DNA from: a virus | Reading direction: 5' to 3' (one strand) | IMG/VR virus record: IMGVR_UViG_3300042691_044686 | Span: 1 to 38,853 of that record | Length of the DNA stretch: 38,853 nt | Shown here: in pieces, positions 1,368 through 26,120 of the stretch | Numbering within the stretch: position 1 is the stretch's first letter | Layout: the number at the start of each line of letters is the position of its first letter | Position numbers and translations under genes: made by a program | The notes under the pieces: generated by a model | Seen by the model: only the letters and a program-made list of their open reading frames with translations | What the model was told of the DNA's origin: nothing | Databases searched by the model: none

Positions 1368-3389
1368 CTAAATAATTTTTGTTTTTATCTGTAATGTTTC
1401 TTTAAAAGTTAGTTTAATTGAGACCTCTGCAAGAATATTCCCTTTCAAAATTTCATCACTAATAAAATCTTCACATAAAGATTGAATTATTCTTTTTATT
1501 GGTCTGGCGCCATATGAATTATCGGTGTTCCTACTTAGAACTTCGTTAGTAACTGTTTGGTCAAACGAGATTATATATTTCTTCTCTTTTAGCCTTTTAA
1601 CTAATTTATCCAATTCTAATTTTATAATTTTTTTCAAAGATTCTTGCTCAAGTGCATCAAATAATATTACATCGTCAATTCGATTAAGAAATTCTGGATT
1701 AAATTGTTGTTTTAAGGATTTTTGAATCATGGTTCTTTTCACATCTTCTTTTTGAGCTTCGCTTGTACTGGTTGAGAACCCTACTCCGGAACCAAATTCA
1801 GAAACCTTTTTTGCGCCAACATTTGATGTCATGATGATTAATGTATTCGCGAAATTTACTTTTCTACCAAAAGAATCTGTCAAATGTCCTTCATCAAGAA
1901 TCTGCAATAGTATATTGAACACATCTTTATGGGCCTTTTCAATTTCATCAAATAAAATAACAGAAAATGGATTATTTTTTATTTTTTCTGTGAGTTGACC
2001 ACCTTCATCATAACCAACATATCCTGGAGGAGATCCAATTAGTCTAGATACTGAGTGTTTTTCCATAAACTCACTCATATCAACACGCACAACTTTATCT
2101 TTTGAACCAAAAATTTGTTCTGCTAATGTTTTTGCTAAGTGTGTTTTACCAACGCCTGTAGACCCAAGAAAAATAAATGAACCGATTGGTTTAGATCCAT
2201 CTTTAATACCAACCCTGTTTCTACGAATGGCTTTAGAAATAGTTGATATTGCCTTATCCTGACCAATGACTCTTTCAGATAAATTTGTTTCAAGGTTTAG
2301 TAAATTATTTGTTTCCTTGTTGTCTATTTTAAAAATTGGTATACCGGTAATTGATGAGATAATGGTATATACATCTTCAATGGTTACTGGAATTAAGTTA
2401 TTCTTTAACTTATCTAACCATTTGCTCTTTTCATCATTTAATTTCTTTTCTAATTTTTTTTCCTCGTCCCTTAGATTTGCGGCAACCTCATAATCTTGTT
2501 TTCTAACAACCTCAATTTTTCTTTGTCTCAATGAGTCGATTTCATTATTTAATTTTTCAATTGATTCAGGAATCTTAGTTGTTACCCTTTTTTCAGAACC
2601 AAGTTCATCTAAAACGTCAATAGCTTTATCTGGAAACTGTCTGTCTGTGATATATCTAGCACATAGTCTGACAATGGTTTCAATAACTTCCGCTTGATAT
2701 TCTACTTTATGATAGTTTTGATAAGATTCTTTTAAATTATCTAATATCTCAATTGTTTCTTCTTCTGTTGGTTCGTCTAAAATTATTTTTTGAAATCTTC
2801 TAACTAACGCGCCATCTTTTTCAATATGTTTTTTGTATTCATCAAAAGTTGTTGCACCAATGCATTGAATCTCTCCTCTGGCTAATGCTGGTTTTAAAAT
2901 ATTTGCTGCGTCCATTGAACCACTAGCATTTCCGGCACCAACCATTGTATGTAATTCATCAATAAAAACAATAATATCTTTATTTTCCTGTAATTCAGCT
3001 AATATTGCCTTTATTCTCTCTTCAAATTGACCACGGTATTTTGTGCCAGCAACAAGTGATGTCAAATCTAAAGAAACAATTCTTTTATCAATTAAACTTG
3101 TTGGGCAATCTCCATTTGATATTAGTAATGCCAGCTTTTCAACTAATGCCGATTTACCAACACCAGCCTCACCAACAATAATGGCGTTATTTTTTTTCTT
3201 TCTGGATAATATCTGCGCAATCCTTTTGACTTCCTTATCTCTACCGACTATCGGGTCAATACTCCCATCTTTCGCTAACCTATTTAGATCTCTTGAAAAA
3301 TTGTCCAGTACTGGTGTGTTGGATGTGTTTTTTCTAGGCTTTGTGTTTGGTTTTTGGTTTTCTTCGTAACCGAAATCTACTCCTGACAT
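1368..3389 (-). CDS. ClpC-type AAA+ unfoldase lacking the N-domain
   Basis: 673 aa with two AAA+ modules. D1 has Walker A GEAGVGKS (73-80) and Walker B VFIDE (141-145). D2 has Walker A GSTGVGKT (409-416), Walker B ILFDE (478-482), arginine-finger region FLNR (567-570) and sensor-2 GARPIKR (627-633). Pore loops are GTKYRG near 115 and GYVGY near 456. The linker at about 290-320 resembles a UVR motif and is far shorter than the ClpB M-domain. A VGF tripeptide (536-538) sits where ClpC and ClpA carry their ClpP-docking loop. The roughly 140-residue N-terminal adaptor domain of normal ClpC is missing; only about 30 low-complexity residues precede D1. No clpP occurs in the window, so it may partner with host ClpP. 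Divergent from hsp20. Confidence 0.92.
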   Translation of the reverse strand: MSGVDFGYEENQKPNTKPRKNTSNTPVLDNFSRDLNRLAKDGSIDPIVGRDKEVKRIAQILSRKKKNNAIIVGEAGVGKSALVEKLALLISNGDCPTSLIDKRIVSLDLTSLVAGTKYRGQFEERIKAILAELQENKDIIVFIDELHTMVGAGNASGSMDAANILKPALARGEIQCIGATTFDEYKKHIEKDGALVRRFQKIILDEPTEEETIEILDNLKESYQNYHKVEYQAEVIETIVRLCARYITDRQFPDKAIDVLDELGSEKRVTTKIPESIEKLNNEIDSLRQRKIEVVRKQDYEVAANLRDEEKKLEKKLNDEKSKWLDKLKNNLIPVTIEDVYTIISSITGIPIFKIDNKETNNLLNLETNLSERVIGQDKAISTISKAIRRNRVGIKDGSKPIGSFIFLGSTGVGKTHLAKTLAEQIFGSKDKVVRVDMSEFMEKHSVSRLIGSPPGYVGYDEGGQLTEKIKNNPFSVILFDEIEKAHKDVFNILLQILDEGHLTDSFGRKVNFANTLIIMTSNVGAKKVSEFGSGVGFSTSTSEAQKEDVKRTMIQKSLKQQFNPEFLNRIDDVILFDALEQESLKKIIKLELDKLVKRLKEKKYIISFDQTVTNEVLSRNTDNSYGARPIKRIIQSLCEDFISDEILKGNILAEVSIKLTFKETLQIKTKII

Positions 3390-3547: not shown

Positions 3548-3916
3548 ATGGTAACATTATTTAAAGATCCGTTTTTTGATGTTATGGACAAAGTGTTCGA
3601 AACATCTCGTGCTACATTTAGCCCACAGACAAGAATTCGCAAAAACGAAAGCGAATATAAACTTTTGATTTCCGTACCAGGTTTAACAAAAGATGATTTA
3701 AAGATTTCAACTAAAGATGGAATTTTAAAAATAACTTTTGAGAATAAACCTGAGGAGGGTGAATTAAACTTTGTTGGTTCTTTTACGAAGGTTTACACCA
3801 TCCCGGATGATGTTAAAGATAAGGACATTTTAGGTAGGGTTGAAAATGGTGTCCTAGAATTAACATTACCAATAGATAAGAAAAAATCTATTGAAAGGTT
3901 AATATCGTTAAATTAA
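3548..3916 (+). CDS. Small heat-shock protein (Hsp20 / alpha-crystallin family)
   Basis: 122 aa. The alpha-crystallin domain spans about 30-115. Seen are YKLLISVPGLTKDDLKIST (38-56), GILKITFE (58-65) and the hallmark GVLELTLP (101-108). The N-terminal arm is only about 30 residues, short for the family. sHsps are ATP-independent holdases that keep unfolded proteins soluble for refolding or degradation. Hsp20 genes are known in many T4-like phages, where they are thought to help virion protein folding. It is divergent from the clp gene, so the two probably share regulation. A strong terminator follows. Function is confident; the phage-specific client is unknown. Confidence 0.93.
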   Translation: MVTLFKDPFFDVMDKVFETSRATFSPQTRIRKNESEYKLLISVPGLTKDDLKISTKDGILKITFENKPEEGELNFVGSFTKVYTIPDDVKDKDILGRVENGVLELTLPIDKKKSIERLISLN

Positions 3917-8589: not shown

Positions 8590-8597
8590 TATTTATA
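8590..8597 (+). promoter_or_regulatory. Late-promoter-like box TATTTATA at the terminase start
   Basis: Exact TATTTATA squeezed between the terminator and the ATG, ending 3 bases before it. If used as a -10 box the transcript would be essentially leaderless. Confidence 0.4.
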
Positions 8598-8600
8598 TAT

Positions 8601-10385
8601 ATGAACAACAAAATTGAACAATTAAAGGAATATGCACGTATCATTAAAGATACCCCATATGCATTGAAGACATATCTTCAAACATATGATAACACTCAAA
8701 AAAAATATGTTCCATTAGAATTATTTCCGGACCAGATTCAGCTACTCAGGGACTATGAGCAGTATAATGAAAATATTACTAGAAAATATAGACAGGCTGG
8801 GGTTACCACGGTTACTGCAGCATGGATTTCAAAGAGGTTGCAATTAGCAAAACCAGAAAATCCGGAGAGGGTTCTAATTATTGCCAACAAGAGGGATACA
8901 GCAATTGAAATGGCTAATAAAGTCCGAAATTTTTTAGATCAGTGGCCAGATTGGATTAATGTTGGTTTCTCGGTAGATAAAAACTCTGAAAGTAGGTATC
9001 GTTTGAATAATGGGTGTGAAGTTAAGGCGGTTGCGACTTCTGCGGATGCGTTACGTGGTTATACCCCAACTATACTTGTATTTGATGAGGCGGCATATAT
9101 TGAGGCTGGAGAGGATTTCTGGGCGGCGTCCATGGCATCCCTATCAACCGGAGGTAAAATTATTCTTATCTCAACTCCGAATGGTTATGACCCAATTTAT
9201 TATGGGGTATATGAACAAGCAATTAGAGGTATAAACGACTTCCATATAACTGATTTAAGATGGTTTAAAGATCCAAGATATACTAAGGATTTAAAATGGT
9301 TAAAAGTACCTGACATTGTTCATTATATGTTAAATAGAGAACAATACAGCGATACGGAAATAACTTTAGATGTACCTGATTATGATTTGATGAAATATCA
9401 GGAATATATGGATCAGGGATACCAACCGTATTCAAGTTGGTTTGAATCCATGTCCAAAAAATTCAAGTATGATAAGAGAAAAATTGCACAAGAACTTGAA
9501 TGTGATTTCTTAGGATCTGGTGATAGTGTTATTCCTTCAGAAACTATGGAAAGGATTGCTAAAACAATGATTAAACCAGCTAAAGAGAAGTATATGCAAG
9601 GGACTCTTTGGCAATGGGAAGAACCAAAAGAAGGTCATCGATATATTATGGGTGTTGACGTTTCTCGTGGTGATAGCGACGACTTTTCTTCGATAAACAT
9701 AATTGATTTTGATGATAGAGAACAAGTATTAGAATATGTTGGTAAAATTCCACCAGATGATTTAGCTTCGATCGCCTATAAATGGGGAATTCTTTATAAC
9801 TGTTTCATTGTAATTGATATTACCGGTGGTATGGGTGTTGCAACATCTAGAAAATTACAAGAGATGGGTTATAAGGATTTATTTGTTGATGGATTTAATA
9901 CTAAAAACGTGTGGGAGTACAACCAGAAAGCATTAGAAAAAATACCAGGCATAAATTTTAATAATAAAAGAACTCAGATAGTTGCGACTTTTGAAGAACA
10001 GTTAAGACATGGGTTTATTGTTAGATCTAATAGATTGTTAAATGAATTAAACACATTTGTTTATATTAATGGTAGACCTAATCACATGAAAGGTTCGCAT
10101 GATGACTCTATCATGAGTATTGCTATTGCGATGTATGCTGGTGACATATCTTTCACACAATTAAAAAGAAATGAAGAGCAGAATAAAGCTATGTTGGAAT
10201 CATGGGTTCTAAGTGAAAGAACATATGAAGCAGAAACATCTCATTATTCATATGGAGGATCTTTAGATCAGATTGGGGCGATGTCTATAGATGGATCTGC
10301 AAGTAGTATGACTGCAGGTTCTCCAACAAAAAACCAATATCAACAATATTCTTGGCTATTTGGTACAAATAAAAAGGGTTTATAA
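8601..10385 (+). CDS. Terminase large subunit (T4 gp17-like)
   Basis: 594 aa DNA-packaging motor. In the N-terminal ATPase, RKYRQAGVTT (61-70) stands in the Walker A position and ILVFDE (158-163) is Walker B. STPNG (191-195) is the coupling motif. IAQELECDFLGSGDSVI (296-312) matches the T4-family linker. The C-terminal RNase H-like nuclease has MGVDVSRGDSDDFSS (about 351-365), FIVIDITGG (about 403-411) and HDDSIMS (about 501-507), supplying the acidic residues. The Walker lysine usually found in GKTT is valine (GVTT). Nearby R61, K62 or R64 could substitute, as in deviant Walker motifs of other terminases. Length and order match gp17. It feeds DNA through the portal encoded next. Confidence 0.97.
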   Translation: MNNKIEQLKEYARIIKDTPYALKTYLQTYDNTQKKYVPLELFPDQIQLLRDYEQYNENITRKYRQAGVTTVTAAWISKRLQLAKPENPERVLIIANKRDTAIEMANKVRNFLDQWPDWINVGFSVDKNSESRYRLNNGCEVKAVATSADALRGYTPTILVFDEAAYIEAGEDFWAASMASLSTGGKIILISTPNGYDPIYYGVYEQAIRGINDFHITDLRWFKDPRYTKDLKWLKVPDIVHYMLNREQYSDTEITLDVPDYDLMKYQEYMDQGYQPYSSWFESMSKKFKYDKRKIAQELECDFLGSGDSVIPSETMERIAKTMIKPAKEKYMQGTLWQWEEPKEGHRYIMGVDVSRGDSDDFSSINIIDFDDREQVLEYVGKIPPDDLASIAYKWGILYNCFIVIDITGGMGVATSRKLQEMGYKDLFVDGFNTKNVWEYNQKALEKIPGINFNNKRTQIVATFEEQLRHGFIVRSNRLLNELNTFVYINGRPNHMKGSHDDSIMSIAIAMYAGDISFTQLKRNEEQNKAMLESWVLSERTYEAETSHYSYGGSLDQIGAMSIDGSASSMTAGSPTKNQYQQYSWLFGTNKKGL

Positions 10386-10430: not shown

Positions 10431-12233
10431 ATGGCAAATAACGATTTAACAATATTTCAAAGGTTAACCAAAATTTTTGGATTTGATAATAGTCCAGTAA
10501 ATAACCAACCTTCGTTTAATTTTTCTAAAGAAGAGTTGTTGAAAACTGGTGATCCGGTTGAGTTTGAAAAAGCAAAATTACAAGGACAACAATCTCAATA
10601 TCTGTTTGATAAATGGGCTAAGTTAGATAATTCATTATACAATCAATCAGTATATTATGAACCAAATAGGTTAGCGGCTTATTATGATTATGAATCAATG
10701 GAATTTACTCCAGAGATTTCTGCTGCGTTAGACATATATGCTGAAGAGTCAACTACGGTTTCCGAAAAGGGGCATATTTTAACAATATATTCGGAATCAG
10801 AAAGGGTTAAAAATGTTTTAATTGATTTATTTGAAAATAAATTAGACATAAACACCAATTTACAAATGTGGTCAAGAAACCTTTGTAAATATGGTGACAA
10901 CTTTGTCTACTTAAAGAGCGATCCTGAAAGAGGCATTATTGGGTGCCAACAATTACCGAATATAGAAATGGAAAGATGGGAGGGCGCTCAATCTAGAACT
11001 CCTAATCAGGGTGACATAAAAACACCTATTCGCGAATTACGTTTCAGTTGGAAGAATAAGGATTTGGAATTTCAATCTTGGGAGATTGCTCATTTTAGAT
11101 TACTTGGTGATGATAGAAAGTTACCATATGGTACTTCTATGCTAGACAAGATTAGAAGAATATGGAAGCAGCTCTTACTTGCCGAAGATGCAATGTTGAT
11201 TTATAGAACATCTAGAGCCCCGGAAAGACGTGTGTTTAAAGTGTTTGTTGGTAATATGGATGATAAAGATATTGAACCATATGTACAACGTGTTGCTAGT
11301 AAGTTTAAAAGAGATACTGTTGTTGACCAAAGAAATGGTAACGTGGATATGCGATACAACCAGATGGCGATTGACCAAGATTTTTTTATACCTGTTAGAG
11401 ATCCTGCCGCGCCAAGTCCAATTGAAACGTTGGCTGGGGCGCAAAACTTAGGTGAAATTGCGGATATTGAATATATTCAGAAAAAATTATTAGCCGCGTT
11501 GAGAATACCTAAAGCGTTTTTAGGATTTGAGGAAGTTGTTGGTGACGGTAAGAGTTTAGCGTTAATGGATATTCGTTTTGCTAGAACCATCAATAGAATC
11601 CAAAAATCAATGGTTCAGGAATTAAATAAAATCGCTTTGATTCATTTATACCTTTTGGGGTTAGAAGATGAGTTGGAGAATTTTACTTTAGGTTTAACAA
11701 ACCCATCCGCGCAATCCGATTTATTAAGAATTGAACAGTGGAAAGAAAAAATTACTTTGTATAAAGATGCCACATCAGATCAATCACAAGTGGGTATTCT
11801 ACCAGTTTCACATACTTGGGCTAAGAAAAATATTCTTGGTATGAGTGATAACGAAGTATTACTTGACTTACAACAACAACGCCTAGAAAGAGCTATGGGA
11901 TTTGAATTAACCAATACCCAAACCGTTATCAAGCGTTCTGGTGTTTTTGATGAGGTTGATAGTAAATATGGAATACCTGAAGACGAAAGACAAAAACTAG
12001 AGGCTCAACCAGCGGGAGAGGGTGATGATATGGGAGGCGGAATGTCTACACCTCCGTCACCACCATCGGGAGGTGCAGATGGCGGCTCTGAGCCATTAAG
12101 TGAAAATAAGTTTAGTAAAATGAAATCTTTCTTAGGTGAAAGTGAAAATATTCAAGATCTTTTTAATTTAGAAAAGGCTCAAAAGAATATTTATGAAATA
12201 GAAAATAAATTGAGAGACATATTAAATGATTAA
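10431..12233 (+). CDS. Portal vertex protein (T4 gp20-like)
   Basis: 600 aa. The dodecameric portal forms the DNA entry and exit vertex and nucleates prohead assembly. Hallmarks of the gp20 family are seen: EFTPEISAALDIYAEEST near 90-107, the wing and stem region RELRFSWKNKDLEF, GTSMLDKIRRIWKQLLLAEDAMLIYR near 225-250, and YIQKKLLAALRIPKAFLGFE near 345-365. The last 80 residues are a Gly/Pro/Ser-rich linker (about 525-550) and a helical tail. Directly follows terminase and is followed after two bases by the putative core gene, in T4-like order. Confidence 0.96.
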   Translation: MANNDLTIFQRLTKIFGFDNSPVNNQPSFNFSKEELLKTGDPVEFEKAKLQGQQSQYLFDKWAKLDNSLYNQSVYYEPNRLAAYYDYESMEFTPEISAALDIYAEESTTVSEKGHILTIYSESERVKNVLIDLFENKLDINTNLQMWSRNLCKYGDNFVYLKSDPERGIIGCQQLPNIEMERWEGAQSRTPNQGDIKTPIRELRFSWKNKDLEFQSWEIAHFRLLGDDRKLPYGTSMLDKIRRIWKQLLLAEDAMLIYRTSRAPERRVFKVFVGNMDDKDIEPYVQRVASKFKRDTVVDQRNGNVDMRYNQMAIDQDFFIPVRDPAAPSPIETLAGAQNLGEIADIEYIQKKLLAALRIPKAFLGFEEVVGDGKSLALMDIRFARTINRIQKSMVQELNKIALIHLYLLGLEDELENFTLGLTNPSAQSDLLRIEQWKEKITLYKDATSDQSQVGILPVSHTWAKKNILGMSDNEVLLDLQQQRLERAMGFELTNTQTVIKRSGVFDEVDSKYGIPEDERQKLEAQPAGEGDDMGGGMSTPPSPPSGGADGGSEPLSENKFSKMKSFLGESENIQDLFNLEKAQKNIYEIENKLRDILND

Positions 12234-12235
12234 AA

Positions 12236-12973
12236 ATGAATAAGATTGGGGTTGTTAAAAGCAAAATTTTAAAGAAATTAACCGAATCGTTTGGTTCTGG
12301 TGAAAAATCTGAAATGAAACAAATTTTATCTAAAGTTGTTACAAATAAAGATTTTAAAGAAATGTATTTGTTTTATGAAGATATTGAAAACAAATATTTT
12401 GATAATTCTGAGGTTGCAAAATTATATGTTGAAGAACTTAATTCTGTATTGAAGAGTAAATCTAAAGTACTATCAACGTTTTGTAAAGAATTAAACGAAA
12501 CCCTTGGTGACATTGAATTTGAAACTAATGAACTTTATTCTTATCTGGATCAATTAACTGAAGATGATAGCTTAAGTAATTTAGACAAAAAAATTATTGC
12601 AAAAAAGAAATTGATTGAGCATTTAACAACGTCTAAAAATGTTGGTACGGAAGACAAACCAACATACACAACTAATGAAAATTTATTATACTCTGTTTTA
12701 GCTAATAACTTCAATACTCTTTATTCTGATAGATTAAATGAGAATCAAAAAGAAGAATTGAAAAATATTTTGTCTTTGAGTGATGAAGATTTAAATAAAA
12801 CCGTTCCAGAATTAAAAGAAGATATTTTATCTAAGGTAAATCTAATGCTTAACGAATCAAGCGATACCGAATTAAATGGTAAATTATCATCAGTGATATC
12901 TGAAGTTAATTCTATGAATGTCACCAAATACAATTATTTTAGATTAAAGCAATTGAAGGATGGTCTTAATTAA
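12236..12973 (+). CDS. Putative prohead core protein
   Basis: 245 aa, no firm homology recognised. The protein is almost wholly helical and rich in Lys, Glu, Asn and Leu, with no low-complexity linker. It lies two bases after portal, where T4 has the small core genes 67 and 68, before the protease. LNE tripeptides fit the (L/I)xE cleavage rule of gp21-type proteases (for example KELNET near 85 and RLNENQ near 165). Its last codons, KDGLN-stop, lie in a perfect palindrome shared with the convergent bS21 gene. The core assignment is from position and composition. Confidence 0.65.
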   Translation: MNKIGVVKSKILKKLTESFGSGEKSEMKQILSKVVTNKDFKEMYLFYEDIENKYFDNSEVAKLYVEELNSVLKSKSKVLSTFCKELNETLGDIEFETNELYSYLDQLTEDDSLSNLDKKIIAKKKLIEHLTTSKNVGTEDKPTYTTNENLLYSVLANNFNTLYSDRLNENQKEELKNILSLSDEDLNKTVPELKEDILSKVNLMLNESSDTELNGKLSSVISEVNSMNVTKYNYFRLKQLKDGLN

Positions 12974-12980
12974 GACCATC
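12959..12980. terminator. Perfect 22-base palindrome, convergent gene ends and terminator
   Basis: GATGGTCTTAA is followed directly by its exact reverse complement. One more G-T pair and two A-T pairs extend the stem. On the plus strand TTTTAATTTTT follows, so it looks like a terminator for the head operon. The minus-strand side has no clear T tract. The palindrome also encodes the end of both convergent genes. Confidence 0.8.
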
Positions 12981-13151
12981 TTTTAATTTTTGGATATATT
13001 TCGCTTTAATTATTTGATCTCTTTTTTTAACTGAGGGTTTTACAAATTCTTGTCGACTTCTCAACTCTTGGATTTGTTTTACTTTGTGCACTTTATTTTT
13101 GTATTGTTTTAGTGCGATCTCAATACCCTTTTTAACTTCAATTATTAACAT
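12966..13151 (-). CDS. rpsU: Ribosomal protein bS21, phage-encoded
   Basis: 61 aa. MLIIEVKKGIEIALKQYKNK, then QELRSRQEFVKPSVKKR and AKYIQKLKDG match the bacterial S21 fold, closest in style to Bacteroidota bS21 (start MLII, RSRQ-F-KPS, AYIQKL). It is about two residues shorter in the first loop. bS21 binds the 30S platform next to the 3' end of 16S rRNA. In Flavobacterium bS21, bS18 and bS6 hide the anti-Shine-Dalgarno. Tyr52 probably corresponds to the conserved tyrosine near position 54 used there. The gene is antisense inside the head cassette. The 27 bases before its ATG are only A or T, so it has no Shine-Dalgarno sequence. Family confidence is high; effect on translation is inferred. 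Confidence 0.9.
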   Translation of the reverse strand: MLIIEVKKGIEIALKQYKNKVHKVKQIQELRSRQEFVKPSVKKRDQIIKAKYIQKLKDGLN

Positions 13152-13245
13152 ATTTTAAAAATTTTTTTATTTTATTTTGTGATTTGCATAAAAAACCGTA
13201 TATTATATATACACCATAATATATGTAAAATTATGTAAAAAATTA

Positions 13246-13674
13246 ATGAAAATTGGAAAATTTATTCCTTTGGGTGATTATAAGGAAATTAAACTAGGAT
13301 ATGGCACAGTTGATCACAGAAATTTAAAAACGATTTATATCAAATTAAACTCCTGGGTTAAACCAGATTCAGATAATACAGATTTTGATAAAATTATTTC
13401 ATTATCTAGGAGAGAAGTAAAGGAATTAATTAGAAACAAAGATTTAGAGGGGCTTTTTAAAAAAGAATCTATTGTTGATCTTGATATAAGAACTAAGGGT
13501 ATAAAGCTTGATAAACGTTCTTTTATGAATTTAGAGATTACTCTTTTTGTTGAAAATCATTTTGATGTTAAATCTTCTCAAGTTAAAAACTTGGTCAAAA
13601 ATTTAGTTCACGAAGTAATTGACGTTTGTTTAACCAACAAGTGTTTATTTAATTTTAATAAAACTAAGGAATGA
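13246..13674 (+). CDS. Hypothetical protein between bS21 and protease
   Basis: 142 aa, not recognised. Compact, basic, without linker or membrane segment. It opens MKIGKFIPLGDYKEIKLGYG and has LDKRSFMNLEITLFVENHFD near 88-107. It is preceded by a 94-base AT-rich gap rich in TATATA and followed by a 42-base gap holding a promoter-like box. Position between portal and core genes and the protease suggests a head assembly role, but nothing in the sequence proves it. Confidence 0.65.
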   Translation: MKIGKFIPLGDYKEIKLGYGTVDHRNLKTIYIKLNSWVKPDSDNTDFDKIISLSRREVKELIRNKDLEGLFKKESIVDLDIRTKGIKLDKRSFMNLEITLFVENHFDVKSSQVKNLVKNLVHEVIDVCLTNKCLFNFNKTKE

Positions 13675-13716: not shown

Positions 13717-14406
13717 ATGAAAGTATTAGGACCTAATGAAACCGGAAAGGGAATTTTAATTGAATATGATGCTGGTCACATTTCACCGGATGAGATAAAG
13801 AATAAAAATGTTATAACAGAAATGCAGAATAAGGATACCGATCAGGACTTTATTCTGTATGCTGTTTTACAAAAATTTGATACTCCCAACAAGAATGGTA
13901 GGATATATCCAGAACCACTATTAAAAAGGGAGAATACTAAGTATCAAGAAATAATTAAGAAAGGTTCGGCACTAAACGAACTAAACCACCCATCTTCTTC
14001 ATTGATCGATTTAGATCGTGTCTCACACACTATTTTAGAGACTTGGTGGGAGGATAAGACCCTAATGGGTAAAATCAAACTTTTGTTGTCACCCGGATTT
14101 AAAAAAATGGGTATAGTTAGTTGCAAGGGAGACCAAGCAGCAATGCTACTTTTAAATGGTGTTACCTTAGGTATTTCATCAAGAGGTGTTGGCTCATTAA
14201 AACAAGTTAAAGGTCAAAATATAGTACAAGATGATTTTGAATTAGTTTGTTTTGATTTAGTGTCATCACCATCAACACCTGGTGCATATGTTTTTCAAGA
14301 TATTAATGACAAGGAAAAATTCAACGAAACTATTGAGGAAAAACCTGTTGTTGATGATAGAATGAAAAAATTAATGGGTAAACTAGATAGTTTTTTATCA
14401 AAATAA
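13717..14406 (+). CDS. Prohead core protease (T4 gp21-like)
   Basis: 229 aa serine protease that matures the T4-type prohead by cutting scaffold, core and capsid proteins after (L/I)xE. Seen are NGRIYPEPLL (60-69), the histidine motif ALNELNHPSS (85-94, H91), and the serine motif GVTLGISSRGVGS (148-160, S154/S155). LVSSPSTPGAYV closes the fold near 181-192. All are diagnostic of the U9/S80-type prohead protease family. Length is close to T4 gp21 (212 aa). It sits just before scaffold and capsid, its expected substrates. Confidence 0.95.
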   Translation: MKVLGPNETGKGILIEYDAGHISPDEIKNKNVITEMQNKDTDQDFILYAVLQKFDTPNKNGRIYPEPLLKRENTKYQEIIKKGSALNELNHPSSSLIDLDRVSHTILETWWEDKTLMGKIKLLLSPGFKKMGIVSCKGDQAAMLLLNGVTLGISSRGVGSLKQVKGQNIVQDDFELVCFDLVSSPSTPGAYVFQDINDKEKFNETIEEKPVVDDRMKKLMGKLDSFLSK

Positions 14407-14498: not shown

Positions 14499-15662
14499 AT
14501 GACTGAAAAATCCATTTTAGAACAAGCGTTACTTCAAGTTAATACACTTGAGGAAGCAGTAAAGCAAAATGCAAAAGGTATACTTTCTTCAGTAATGAAA
14601 AAAGAACTAAACGAATTGCTTAAAGAATCAGAGGAAGTGGAAGAAGAGGACGACGTTGTCGAGCCTAAAGAAGAGGAATCAGAAGATATGTCAGAACAGC
14701 CTGCAGATGATGAGGCTGATGATGATAATGAAGAAATGCCCTCGATAAATGATGAACCATCAAAAGACATTGACGGTGATGACATGGCTCCAGAAATGGG
14801 CGATGACGTTCCGGGTATGGATGATGAAATGGAACCAGAGATGGATGACATGCCAGATTTTGGTGATTCGGATTCTGATGACGATATGCTTGATATGACC
14901 GGTGCTTCTGACGAAGAAGTATTAAAAGTATTCAAAGCTATGTCTGATGAGGATGGAATCATTGTAAAAAAAGATGGTGAAAACATCGAATTACAAGATG
15001 GTGACGATGAGTATATCATTAAGTTAGACGAATCTGAGGAGGAAGAAGTATCCGAAGATTGGAATGAGGAAGAAATGGCTGGGGAAGATGAAACTGTTTA
15101 TGAAATCGAATTAGGCGATGACGACATGTCTGACGAAGAAATGTCCGAAGAGGAGTCTGAGGAAGAAGCTCACGAAGAAGAAGTTGGTGAGTCTGCTCGT
15201 TCAAAGGCTTTTGGTCAAAAAGGTGGATTAGAATCTAAGAAAATTTTCGCAGCTGGCCGCAGAAATGAATCAATCAACGAAGAGTTACAAACTTTGAAAA
15301 AACAAAATGATGAGTATAAGAAAGCTCTAGTGTTGTTTAAAGATAAGTTAAACGAAGTTGCTGTATTCAATGCGAATCTTGCTCATGCAACAAGATTATT
15401 TACAGAACACACAACAACAAAACAGGAGAAAATGGATATTTTGAAAAGATTTGATACCGTTTCTACTATAAATGAATCTAAAAATCTTTTCACATCAATC
15501 AGAACAGAATTGACTTCTAAAAAGCCAGTTACTGAATCTGTAGCACAAAAAATCTCATCAACGCCTTCTAGCTCATCTTCACAAGAGATGTTATCTGAGT
15601 CAAAAGCATATGAAGCACCTCAGTTTAGAAGAATGAGAGATTTAATGAGCAAATTAAAATAA
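14499..15662 (+). CDS. Prohead core scaffold protein (T4 gp22-like)
   Basis: 387 aa. A short helical N-terminus is followed by a very acidic stretch of about 180 residues (roughly 45-230). There Asp, Glu, Met, Pro and Ser dominate. A helical C-terminal third follows, containing NEELQTLKKQNDEYKKALVL (coiled coil, about 260-285) and a Ser-rich stretch before RRMRDLMSKLK. This composition and the place between protease and capsid are those of T4 gp22, the core that shapes the prohead and is then digested. Several (L/I)xE sites (for example INE, LSE) are present. The acidic part is longer than in T4 gp22 (269 aa). Confidence 0.85.
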   Translation: MTEKSILEQALLQVNTLEEAVKQNAKGILSSVMKKELNELLKESEEVEEEDDVVEPKEEESEDMSEQPADDEADDDNEEMPSINDEPSKDIDGDDMAPEMGDDVPGMDDEMEPEMDDMPDFGDSDSDDDMLDMTGASDEEVLKVFKAMSDEDGIIVKKDGENIELQDGDDEYIIKLDESEEEEVSEDWNEEEMAGEDETVYEIELGDDDMSDEEMSEEESEEEAHEEEVGESARSKAFGQKGGLESKKIFAAGRRNESINEELQTLKKQNDEYKKALVLFKDKLNEVAVFNANLAHATRLFTEHTTTKQEKMDILKRFDTVSTINESKNLFTSIRTELTSKKPVTESVAQKISSTPSSSSSQEMLSESKAYEAPQFRRMRDLMSKLK

Positions 15663-15697: not shown

Positions 15698-17431
15698 ATG
15701 GGAGCATTATTAGAATCAGGTATGGTTGGTAACATCGGTCTTAAGCACCTTCGTGTTATCAAAGAAGATACCATTAAAAAATGGGATGATTTAGGATTCC
15801 TAGACGGTCTTGACGGCCATCAAAAAGATAATATCGCGCAGTTGTATGAAAACCAAGCGTCTTATTTGATCAACGAAGCAGCAGTTTCTGACGCTTCTGG
15901 ATCATTCGAGACAGTGGTATTCCCTATCATCCGTCGTGTATTCTCTAAGTTGTTAGCAAACGACATCGTATCAGTACAAGCAATGAACTTACCAATTGGT
16001 AAATTGTTCTACTTTGTACCTAAAATTCAGGATAGAAATGCTGGTGCACACTATCAGCCATTCGGTATGCCAGGTAACTCTGACGCAGCTACTGCTGGTT
16101 ATGGTGACAGCGCAAAGAACCTTTATGATCGTTTTTATGAGTCTTCTGACGCAAATGATCAAGGTTTATTTGATTATTCAAAGGGTGCTTTCACGACAGT
16201 TGAGGCTAACCCACACGGATTTGTTACATTCTCAAACGGTGTAGCAAGTGAAACTACTGCAGCTCAAAGTGGCTCAAGTGTTTCTAGTTTGATCGTTGTT
16301 CTTACTGGTTTCAGTAAGGATGGTCAAGGTAAGATGATCGGTGCTAATGGTAACCTTATGGATACTGAAGAATTCTTAGCATCTCTTCAAGTTGAAGTTA
16401 CTGGTAACACTACTGCAAACAACGGTGTTAAAAATTTCAACGTTGTAACTCAGAAATATGGTAAAGGTATTGTTGAGTATGGCGCAAAGAGTGGATCTGG
16501 TCTTAGCAGATATCATGACATTTGTGATGAAGAAGGTAAAATCTACTTAAATGTTGATTTGGAAAGCTATAGCAACACAACAGGTTTTGCTGCTGCTGAC
16601 TTTAGTTCTAACGACTTAGCTTTAGCTAACTTCAAAGTAACTTACAGAACATATGAGACTTTGGAATTTGAAGACAACATCGGTGAAGTATCATTTGATC
16701 TTGCTTCAGTTACAGTTTCTGTTACTGAAAGAAAATTAAGAGCTAGCTGGTCTCCAGAACTTGCTCAGGACGTATCTGCGTTCCACAACATCGATGCTGA
16801 AGCTGAATTAACAGCTTTATTATCTGAGCAAATCGCTGCTGAGGTTGACCGTGAAATTTTACGTGACCTTAGAAAAGGTGCTGCTTGGACAGCTAAGTGG
16901 GATTATAATGAGTGGAAGTATGGTGCAACTGGAAACACCCCATATGTAGGATACACTCAAAAAGACTGGAACCAAACATTGATCACTAAGATCAACCAGG
17001 TTTCTGCTCAGATTCATAAATCTACTTTGAGAGGTGGTGCAAACTGGATCGTTGTTTCTTCAGAAGTTTCTGCGGTATTCGATGATTTGGAATATTTCCA
17101 CGTATCAAACGCTCATCCAGAGCAAGATCAATACAACATGGGTATCGAAAAGATCGGTACACTTGCTGGACGTTATCAAGTATTCCGTGATCCATACTTA
17201 CCAGCTGGTAAGATCCTTATTGGTCACAAAGGTAAGTCATTATTGGATGCTGGTTACATCTACGCACCATATGTACCTTTACAGTTAACTCCAACAATGT
17301 ACAATCCATTCAACATGACACCAATCAAAGGTATCATGACAAGATACGCGAAGAAAATGGTTAACAACCGTTACTTCGGTCTGATCAACGTAAGTGGATT
17401 GCAAACATTTGATCTTAACACTTTAAGATAA
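15698..17431 (+). CDS. Major capsid protein (T4 gp23-like)
   Basis: 577 aa. The N-terminus through residue 60 (SYLINE) looks like the cleaved propeptide of gp23: INE at 58-60 fits the (L/I)xE rule, giving a mature start at A61 (T4 cleaves after residue 65). The body has FETVVFPIIRRVFSKL (70-85), the insertion-type middle, and the strongly conserved C-terminal part with HKSTLRGGANWIVVSSEVS and RYFGLINVSGLQTFDL. The leader is purine/A-rich with A at -3 and -6 and no Shine-Dalgarno, as in highly expressed flavobacterial genes. Codon choice is distinct from neighbours (more GGT, GCT, AAC, ATC), consistent with very high expression. Confidence 0.97.
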   Translation: MGALLESGMVGNIGLKHLRVIKEDTIKKWDDLGFLDGLDGHQKDNIAQLYENQASYLINEAAVSDASGSFETVVFPIIRRVFSKLLANDIVSVQAMNLPIGKLFYFVPKIQDRNAGAHYQPFGMPGNSDAATAGYGDSAKNLYDRFYESSDANDQGLFDYSKGAFTTVEANPHGFVTFSNGVASETTAAQSGSSVSSLIVVLTGFSKDGQGKMIGANGNLMDTEEFLASLQVEVTGNTTANNGVKNFNVVTQKYGKGIVEYGAKSGSGLSRYHDICDEEGKIYLNVDLESYSNTTGFAAADFSSNDLALANFKVTYRTYETLEFEDNIGEVSFDLASVTVSVTERKLRASWSPELAQDVSAFHNIDAEAELTALLSEQIAAEVDREILRDLRKGAAWTAKWDYNEWKYGATGNTPYVGYTQKDWNQTLITKINQVSAQIHKSTLRGGANWIVVSSEVSAVFDDLEYFHVSNAHPEQDQYNMGIEKIGTLAGRYQVFRDPYLPAGKILIGHKGKSLLDAGYIYAPYVPLQLTPTMYNPFNMTPIKGIMTRYAKKMVNNRYFGLINVSGLQTFDLNTLR

Positions 17432-25421: not shown

Positions 25422-26120
25422 TTAATCTAAAAATCTACCCAAAACACCGTCATATAAGTTTTTATACTTTTTGAGTGATATTCGTATCTCCTTTGTTGAC
25501 AAAGATGTCATTTCTCTAAGAGATAGTAAAATAAGATTCTTATTGAATTTGTTACCATCACCAATTTGGAATATTTTTTCAAAATTGCTAAAAATCTCAA
25601 GTAGAGCATAACCTAATTTTTTTTCATTTTCAGTGAGCTCTTCCTGCTCAATAAAATCCTCTAATTTTTGAGATAGTTGTGTGATTACGTCGCCATAATC
25701 AATAAAACTCGCATCAATTGTGTAAGAAAAATCAACTCTAGATTCAATATCTTCGGAAATATCTTCATATGAGATACTTCGATTAGTTTCTTTACTATCT
25801 TTTTGTATGGCCCCCATTAAGTAATTCTTACATATGGTACCAAAATAAGAATATGCTTTATGGTTTTTTGTGTGATCAAATTTATTGATCTTGGTTATTA
25901 AAAAAGACATGGTGTCGGTATGAATTTCTTCAAATTCCATGTCTTTTCTATATAATTTGTAACGTCGAATTATTGATTCGACCATTATTACTAGGGGTTC
26001 TCTTAAATATTCATTGAATATCTTATTTCTTTCTGCTTCATCACTACTTTCTAGGTAATTGACTACCGCCTTTTCTTGATCCTCCCCAAAATAAACTTTT
26101 TGGGTTCGTTTTCTAGGCAT
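25422..26120 (-). CDS. Late-transcription sigma factor (T4 gp55-like)
   Basis: 232 aa. The region INKFDHTKNHKAYSYFGTIC, then KNYLMGAIQKDSKE (78-111), is the -10-recognition core (region 2.2-2.4) of a sigma-70-type protein. An upstream helix (NEYLREPLVIMVESIIRRYK, 36-55) serves as region 1.2/2.1. There is no region 4, as expected for T4 gp55, which depends on a co-activator and reads only a -10 box. It overlaps the next gene's start (shared base 26120). The promoter-like TATTTATA boxes before virion genes are candidate targets. The sigma call is well supported; targets are inferred. Confidence 0.8.
   Translation of the reverse strand: MPRKRTQKVYFGEDQEKAVVNYLESSDEAERNKIFNEYLREPLVIMVESIIRRYKLYRKDMEFEEIHTDTMSFLITKINKFDHTKNHKAYSYFGTICKNYLMGAIQKDSKETNRSISYEDISEDIESRVDFSYTIDASFIDYGDVITQLSQKLEDFIEQEELTENEKKLGYALLEIFSNFEKIFQIGDGNKFNKNLILLSLREMTSLSTKEIRISLKKYKNLYDGVLGRFLD

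Follow-up and report, generated by a model that had tools for sequence, protein, structure and literature searches.

Examination of a 38,853-base virus record, analysed over its whole length (hereafter the window) and probably a fragment of a larger T4-like phage, revealed a gene coding for a Bacteroidota-type ribosomal protein bS21 whose leader carries no Shine-Dalgarno (SD) sequence. This absence is general among phages of the kind: a strong SD, defined as pairing with the 16S rRNA tail at or below -13 kcal/mol, was found in 0 of 134 distinct phage bS21 leaders versus 65 of 77 leaders from the nearest bacterial loci. The model we favour, at somewhat less than an even chance, is that a functional phage bS21 made outside the host regulatory loop enters the 30S subunit, lowers the expression of a host rpsU bearing a strong SD and takes over the bS21 pool.

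Identity of the phage bS21 protein

The phage rpsU gene (12966..13151, reverse strand) starts with ATG and codes for a 61-amino acid protein. Its original assignment to the Bacteroidota form of bS21 was borne out by a match to Pfam PF01165 (E 1.1e-9, above cut-off) and by the closest solved protein, Flavobacterium johnsoniae bS21 (7jil, E 1.5e-13); the NCBIfam TIGR00030 match (E 1.6e-6, 27.9 bits) falls slightly below its cut-off of 28.95. An AlphaFold2 model (pLDDT 85) consists entirely of helix, with three predicted helices, and the best solved folds against it are all ribosomal small-subunit proteins, none of them significant (best E 0.65), so that the model contributes little to the case.

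Alignment with F. johnsoniae bS21 places codon 52 (Tyr52; 12996-12998, reverse strand) opposite Tyr54, the residue that contacts the 16S 3' tail, as had been predicted for a residue holding the anti-SD. This position is aromatic in 129/129 aligned proteins (128 viral and that of the window; Y119 F7 H3). The C-terminus, AKYIQKLKD, fits the pattern A-x-Y-[IV]-Q...[LM][KR]D. The A-x-Y-[IV]-Q part is present in 61 of the 66 nearest bacterial proteins and in 28/28 from Flavobacterium, versus 0/27 from Saprospiraceae. Judged by these residues, the C-terminus appears to be of the Flavobacteriales type, which favours a host with a strong SD on rpsU without proving one.

The N-terminal part is the basis of a different explanation. 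Chen et al. (2022; PMC9723584) reported that N-terminal positions of phage bS21 diverge from those of the host, and under their hypothesis an altered N-terminal helix makes ribosomes prefer phage mRNAs, the leader being incidental. In keeping with it, positions 21, 23 and 28 (F. johnsoniae numbering), among those at which Chen et al. found divergence, depart from the host residue in most phage proteins of our alignment, and the stretch before ALK is two residues shorter in the window protein than in that of F. johnsoniae. However, phage and host mRNAs are both without SDs, and the recognition element that this explanation calls for, common to phage mRNAs and absent from host mRNAs, is hypothetical. 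We regard the explanation as rather unlikely, and keep the takeover of the bS21 pool by a feedback-free copy as the preferred reading.

The head cassette and known bS21 phages

The gene lies within a T4-type cassette whose other members are all on the forward strand. Profile matches identify TerL (8601-10385), a T4-type portal (10431-12233), a prohead protease (13717-14406) and a Gp23-type major capsid protein (15698-17431). Between portal and protease stand an uncharacterised convergent gene of 245 codons (12236..12973; no Pfam or PHROGs match), the reversed bS21 gene and an uncharacterised divergent gene of 142 codons (MKIGKFIP...; 13246..13674) that is kept beside bS21 in relatives. An acidic protein encoded between protease and capsid (14499-15662) is possibly the scaffold. 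The bS21 gene had been described as antisense in the head cassette; it does lie on the strand opposite to its neighbours, but it overlaps another gene by just 8 bases, at its 3' end (12966-12973, shared with the convergent gene).

The placement itself cannot be claimed as new. Chen et al. (2022) described 47 genomes of freshwater Bacteroidetes phages, and every one of them has a reverse-strand bS21 gene at this place in the cassette. Those phages, divided into clades a-e by TerL, have complete genomes of 293-331 kb with a G+C content of 31.0-33.7%, an aromatic residue at position 54 and late transcription of bS21, and their authors put forward the idea of preferential phage translation (PMC9723584). 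The window phage resembles them in having a bS21 homologue on the reverse strand within the TerL/portal/protease/capsid order, two conserved uncharacterised flanking genes, the aromatic Tyr54-equivalent, a G+C content of 32.1%, and PhoH, dUTPase, Clp and chaperone genes; judged by the described features, no difference in kind was found. The kind of phage is thus already known, and the leader comparison is the addition made here. Chen et al. do not mention feedback, autoregulation or ribosome-binding sites in their main text (PMC9723584), and no comparison of phage with host rpsU leaders was found in a literature search that covered few subscription journals.

A nucleotide search with the cassette gave no match among named phage records. 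The six such records that carry a related bS21 have no annotation, and the top named phage among the TerL matches listed was Flavobacterium phage immuto, at 27.6% identity. Neither a tRNA nor an Rfam family at gathering threshold was detected in the window. The same fragment encodes an AAA+ ATPase of the Clp type that contains a UVR motif (1368-3389, reverse strand) and an Hsp20 chaperone (3548-3916, forward strand). A gene at 25422-26120 (reverse strand) shows a weak match (E 0.00029) to phrog_234, a family of late sigma factors.

Leaders of phage and bacterial rpsU genes

The 27 bases that precede the ATG (13152..13178, reverse strand) are only A or T, as first noted, and include an A at -3, -12 and -13. 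Their predicted pairing with the anti-SD amounts to +1.6 kcal/mol, and no fold is predicted for the start region. For comparison, 274 viral loci were collected from five scans and from named phage records and reduced to 134 distinct bS21 protein-leader pairs, while the bacterial sample comprised the 80 nearest loci by similarity, of which 77 were readable; start codons were assigned by rule, and the viral loci are metagenomic fragments. Median predicted pairing was +0.7 kcal/mol for phage bS21 and -17.0 kcal/mol for the nearest bacterial rpsU, and only 6/134 phage leaders were at or below -8 kcal/mol. The contrast is unchanged with other canonical anti-SD tails; its Fisher probability (1.6e-42) is rough, as related rows overstate independence.

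McNutt et al. (2023; PMC9976891) established that F. johnsoniae rpsU is autoregulated through an extended SD: ribosomes lacking bS21 translate the strong-SD rpsU mRNA better and SD-less mRNAs worse. All 29 Flavobacterium leaders in our sample pair at or below -16 kcal/mol (about -17). The phage gene belongs to the same protein family and keeps the Tyr54 contact residue, but the exceptionally strong SD, the defining regulatory signal of the Flavobacterium gene, is absent from it. The comparison of rpsU leaders called for at the outset sets 29 of 29 strong leaders in Flavobacterium against 0 of 134 in the phages.

Bacterial leaders are not uniform. A strong SD was found in 6/28 mixed Bacteroidia rpsU leaders and in 0/27 of a family sample whose Saprospiraceae label rests on one relative, L063, and seven of the nearest bacterial relatives are SD-less (L063, L078, L088, L098, L111, L118 and L128). 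Several genomes of the Saprospiraceae family have two to four bS21 genes, one of them (G028) with three within 1.5 kb of a single contig. Because Saprospiraceae rpsU is also without a strong SD, the proposed escape of the phage copy from feedback depends on the host: it would apply in a Flavobacterium-like host and would have no meaning in a Saprospiraceae-like one. The least probable of the alternatives is that the host rpsU is itself SD-less, the host being Saprospiraceae-like or a streamlined marine relative, so that the phage copy merely resembles the host gene and has no feedback to escape; the SD-less relatives just listed speak for it, and the Flavobacteriales kind of C-terminus, the uniformly strong Flavobacterium leaders and the Flavobacterium CRISPR spacer that targets one related phage (PMC9723584) speak against it.

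The idea that the lack of an SD is peculiar to bS21 was rejected. Across the 41 tabulated genes of the window, pairing with the anti-SD has a median of -0.5 kcal/mol and none reaches -8 kcal/mol. Because none of these genes has a strong SD, its absence is the default of this phage and need not have been selected at bS21. The missing feedback signal that had been proposed is real, and general across the phage leaders, but not specific to this gene.

Phage lineages with an SD on bS21

In some phage lineages bS21 carries AAAGGAGGA, almost alone among their own genes. Three such groups were recognised: L203 together with L255, L256 and L261, with leaders containing AAAAGGAGGA (-12.2 kcal/mol); L226, a 735-kb phage, together with L329 (-12.1 kcal/mol); and L176 (-9.7 kcal/mol). 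The other called genes near bS21 pair weakly in the L203 group, and one neighbour reaches -9.8 kcal/mol in L226. Overall, 5/134 bS21 leaders are at or below -10 kcal/mol versus 2/669 for the other genes in the phage loci of relatives (median -1.0 kcal/mol). When a tree is built from the prohead protease, SD-less phages surround the L203 and L255 groups, so that two or three changes are required; the bootstrap of this tree was unsettled. From this nesting, an SD was probably gained, or a module exchanged, inside an SD-less group.

These lineages bear on an explanation in which the absence of an SD is nothing special: the host makes no use of SDs, all phage genes lack them, and bS21 simply tops up ribosomes for late protein synthesis. 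The figures for the window and for the 669 other phage genes are what it would predict; the presence of AAAGGAGGA on bS21 almost alone, in lineages nested among SD-less phages, is not. We consider it rather unlikely, and less probable than the preferred model of a copy freed from host feedback.

Proposed mechanism

Under that model the phage bS21 would probably join host 30S subunits. A precedent for incorporation is the bS21 of pelagiphage HTVC008M, which enters E. coli ribosomes (Mizuno et al. 2019, PMC6375957); it is likewise phage-encoded, but of the alphaproteobacterial type. That it lowered the activity of these ribosomes to about 5% (PMC6375957) speaks against the model. With the Tyr54-equivalent retained, the anti-SD would stay sequestered. 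Because its own mRNA has no SD, translation of the phage copy should be insensitive to the number of ribosomes lacking bS21, while the bS21 that it supplies would lower translation of the SD-dependent host rpsU. The bS21 pool would then be taken over by a copy with an N-terminal helix unlike that of the host, possibly to the benefit of the phage.

The original prediction went further and had phage mRNAs favoured over SD-dependent host mRNAs. This does not follow for Flavobacteriales, where mRNAs other than rpsU are without a strong SD (PMC9976891). Because strong SDs are nearly confined to rpsU in this order, rpsU itself is the only host mRNA that should suffer.

A more speculative extension, which we think doubtful, divides phage bS21 genes into two classes. 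The great majority, SD-less and deaf to feedback, would silence host rpsU through its own autoregulation and monopolise the bS21 site of the ribosome; the genes of a few lineages, with a strong SD and in one case apparently gained in an SD-less clade, would remain linked to the feedback. The Clp ATPase encoded at 1368-3389 might help to remove host bS21. McNutt et al. had already speculated on phage bS21 and on removal of the host protein by a phage protease (PMC9976891).

The leader contrast turns the puzzle of bS21 in aquatic phages into a concrete test, with a host gene autoregulated through its SD and a usual phage copy without this signal, and the SD-bearing phage lineages offer natural controls. 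If the phage copy does shut off host rpsU through the host loop, this would be a simple and directly testable route to altered ribosome composition.

Hairpin at the convergent 3' ends

An inverted repeat of 38 nt (12951..12988) runs across the region where the convergent gene and bS21 overlap at their 3' ends, and in the forward transcript folds with a 17-bp stem and a 4-nt loop. Folding energies are -20.1 kcal/mol on the forward strand (z -6.6) and -12.5 kcal/mol on the reverse strand (z -4.3), and z is below -2 on both strands in 47/134 loci. When 20 relatives were aligned, 89.6% of the hairpin cells paired, and sliding destroyed this pairing. Eight cells were changed on both sides, versus a mean of 2.5 in shuffled alignments, and none of 500 shuffles was as high. 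At L016 bS21 and the convergent gene are 30 bases apart, with a separate hairpin between them.

Both proteins end in KDGLN in the window, and pure coincidence of the two ends was weighed. Host bS21 already ends in KDSL or KDGL, and the neighbour has a similar end also at loci without an overlap; similar end codons thus produce part of a palindrome by themselves. Even so, the paired changes speak in favour of selection on the hairpin. It is likely a terminator, perhaps serving both strands, and its T-rich tail is clear in the window on the forward strand only. Such a hairpin would give a second possible reason for the conserved C-termini of phage bS21, besides the ribosome binding proposed by Chen et al.

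Elements upstream of bS21

The divergent intergenic region contains the conserved element TTATGGTG (13212..13219, reverse strand). Across the clade of the window its position relative to the start of bS21 ranges from -67 to -81. It is almost always the sole sense copy in the locus and lies about 20-27 bases before the divergent gene. Both a short upstream reading frame and part of a promoter were considered for it, and a sigma70-like match, TTTACA-16-TATAAT, has the element within its spacer.

Another short motif, TATTTAT, has 25 copies in the window (for example at 8590, 10419, 13690, 14471 and 35913, forward strand). Read in the coding direction, it occurs at most 60 bases upstream of the start for 14 called genes; in reverse, it does so for 2. 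In relatives its position peaks at 11-12, 20-22 and 27-28 bases before the ATG, peaks that are inflated by orthologues, and it is possibly a phage promoter element.
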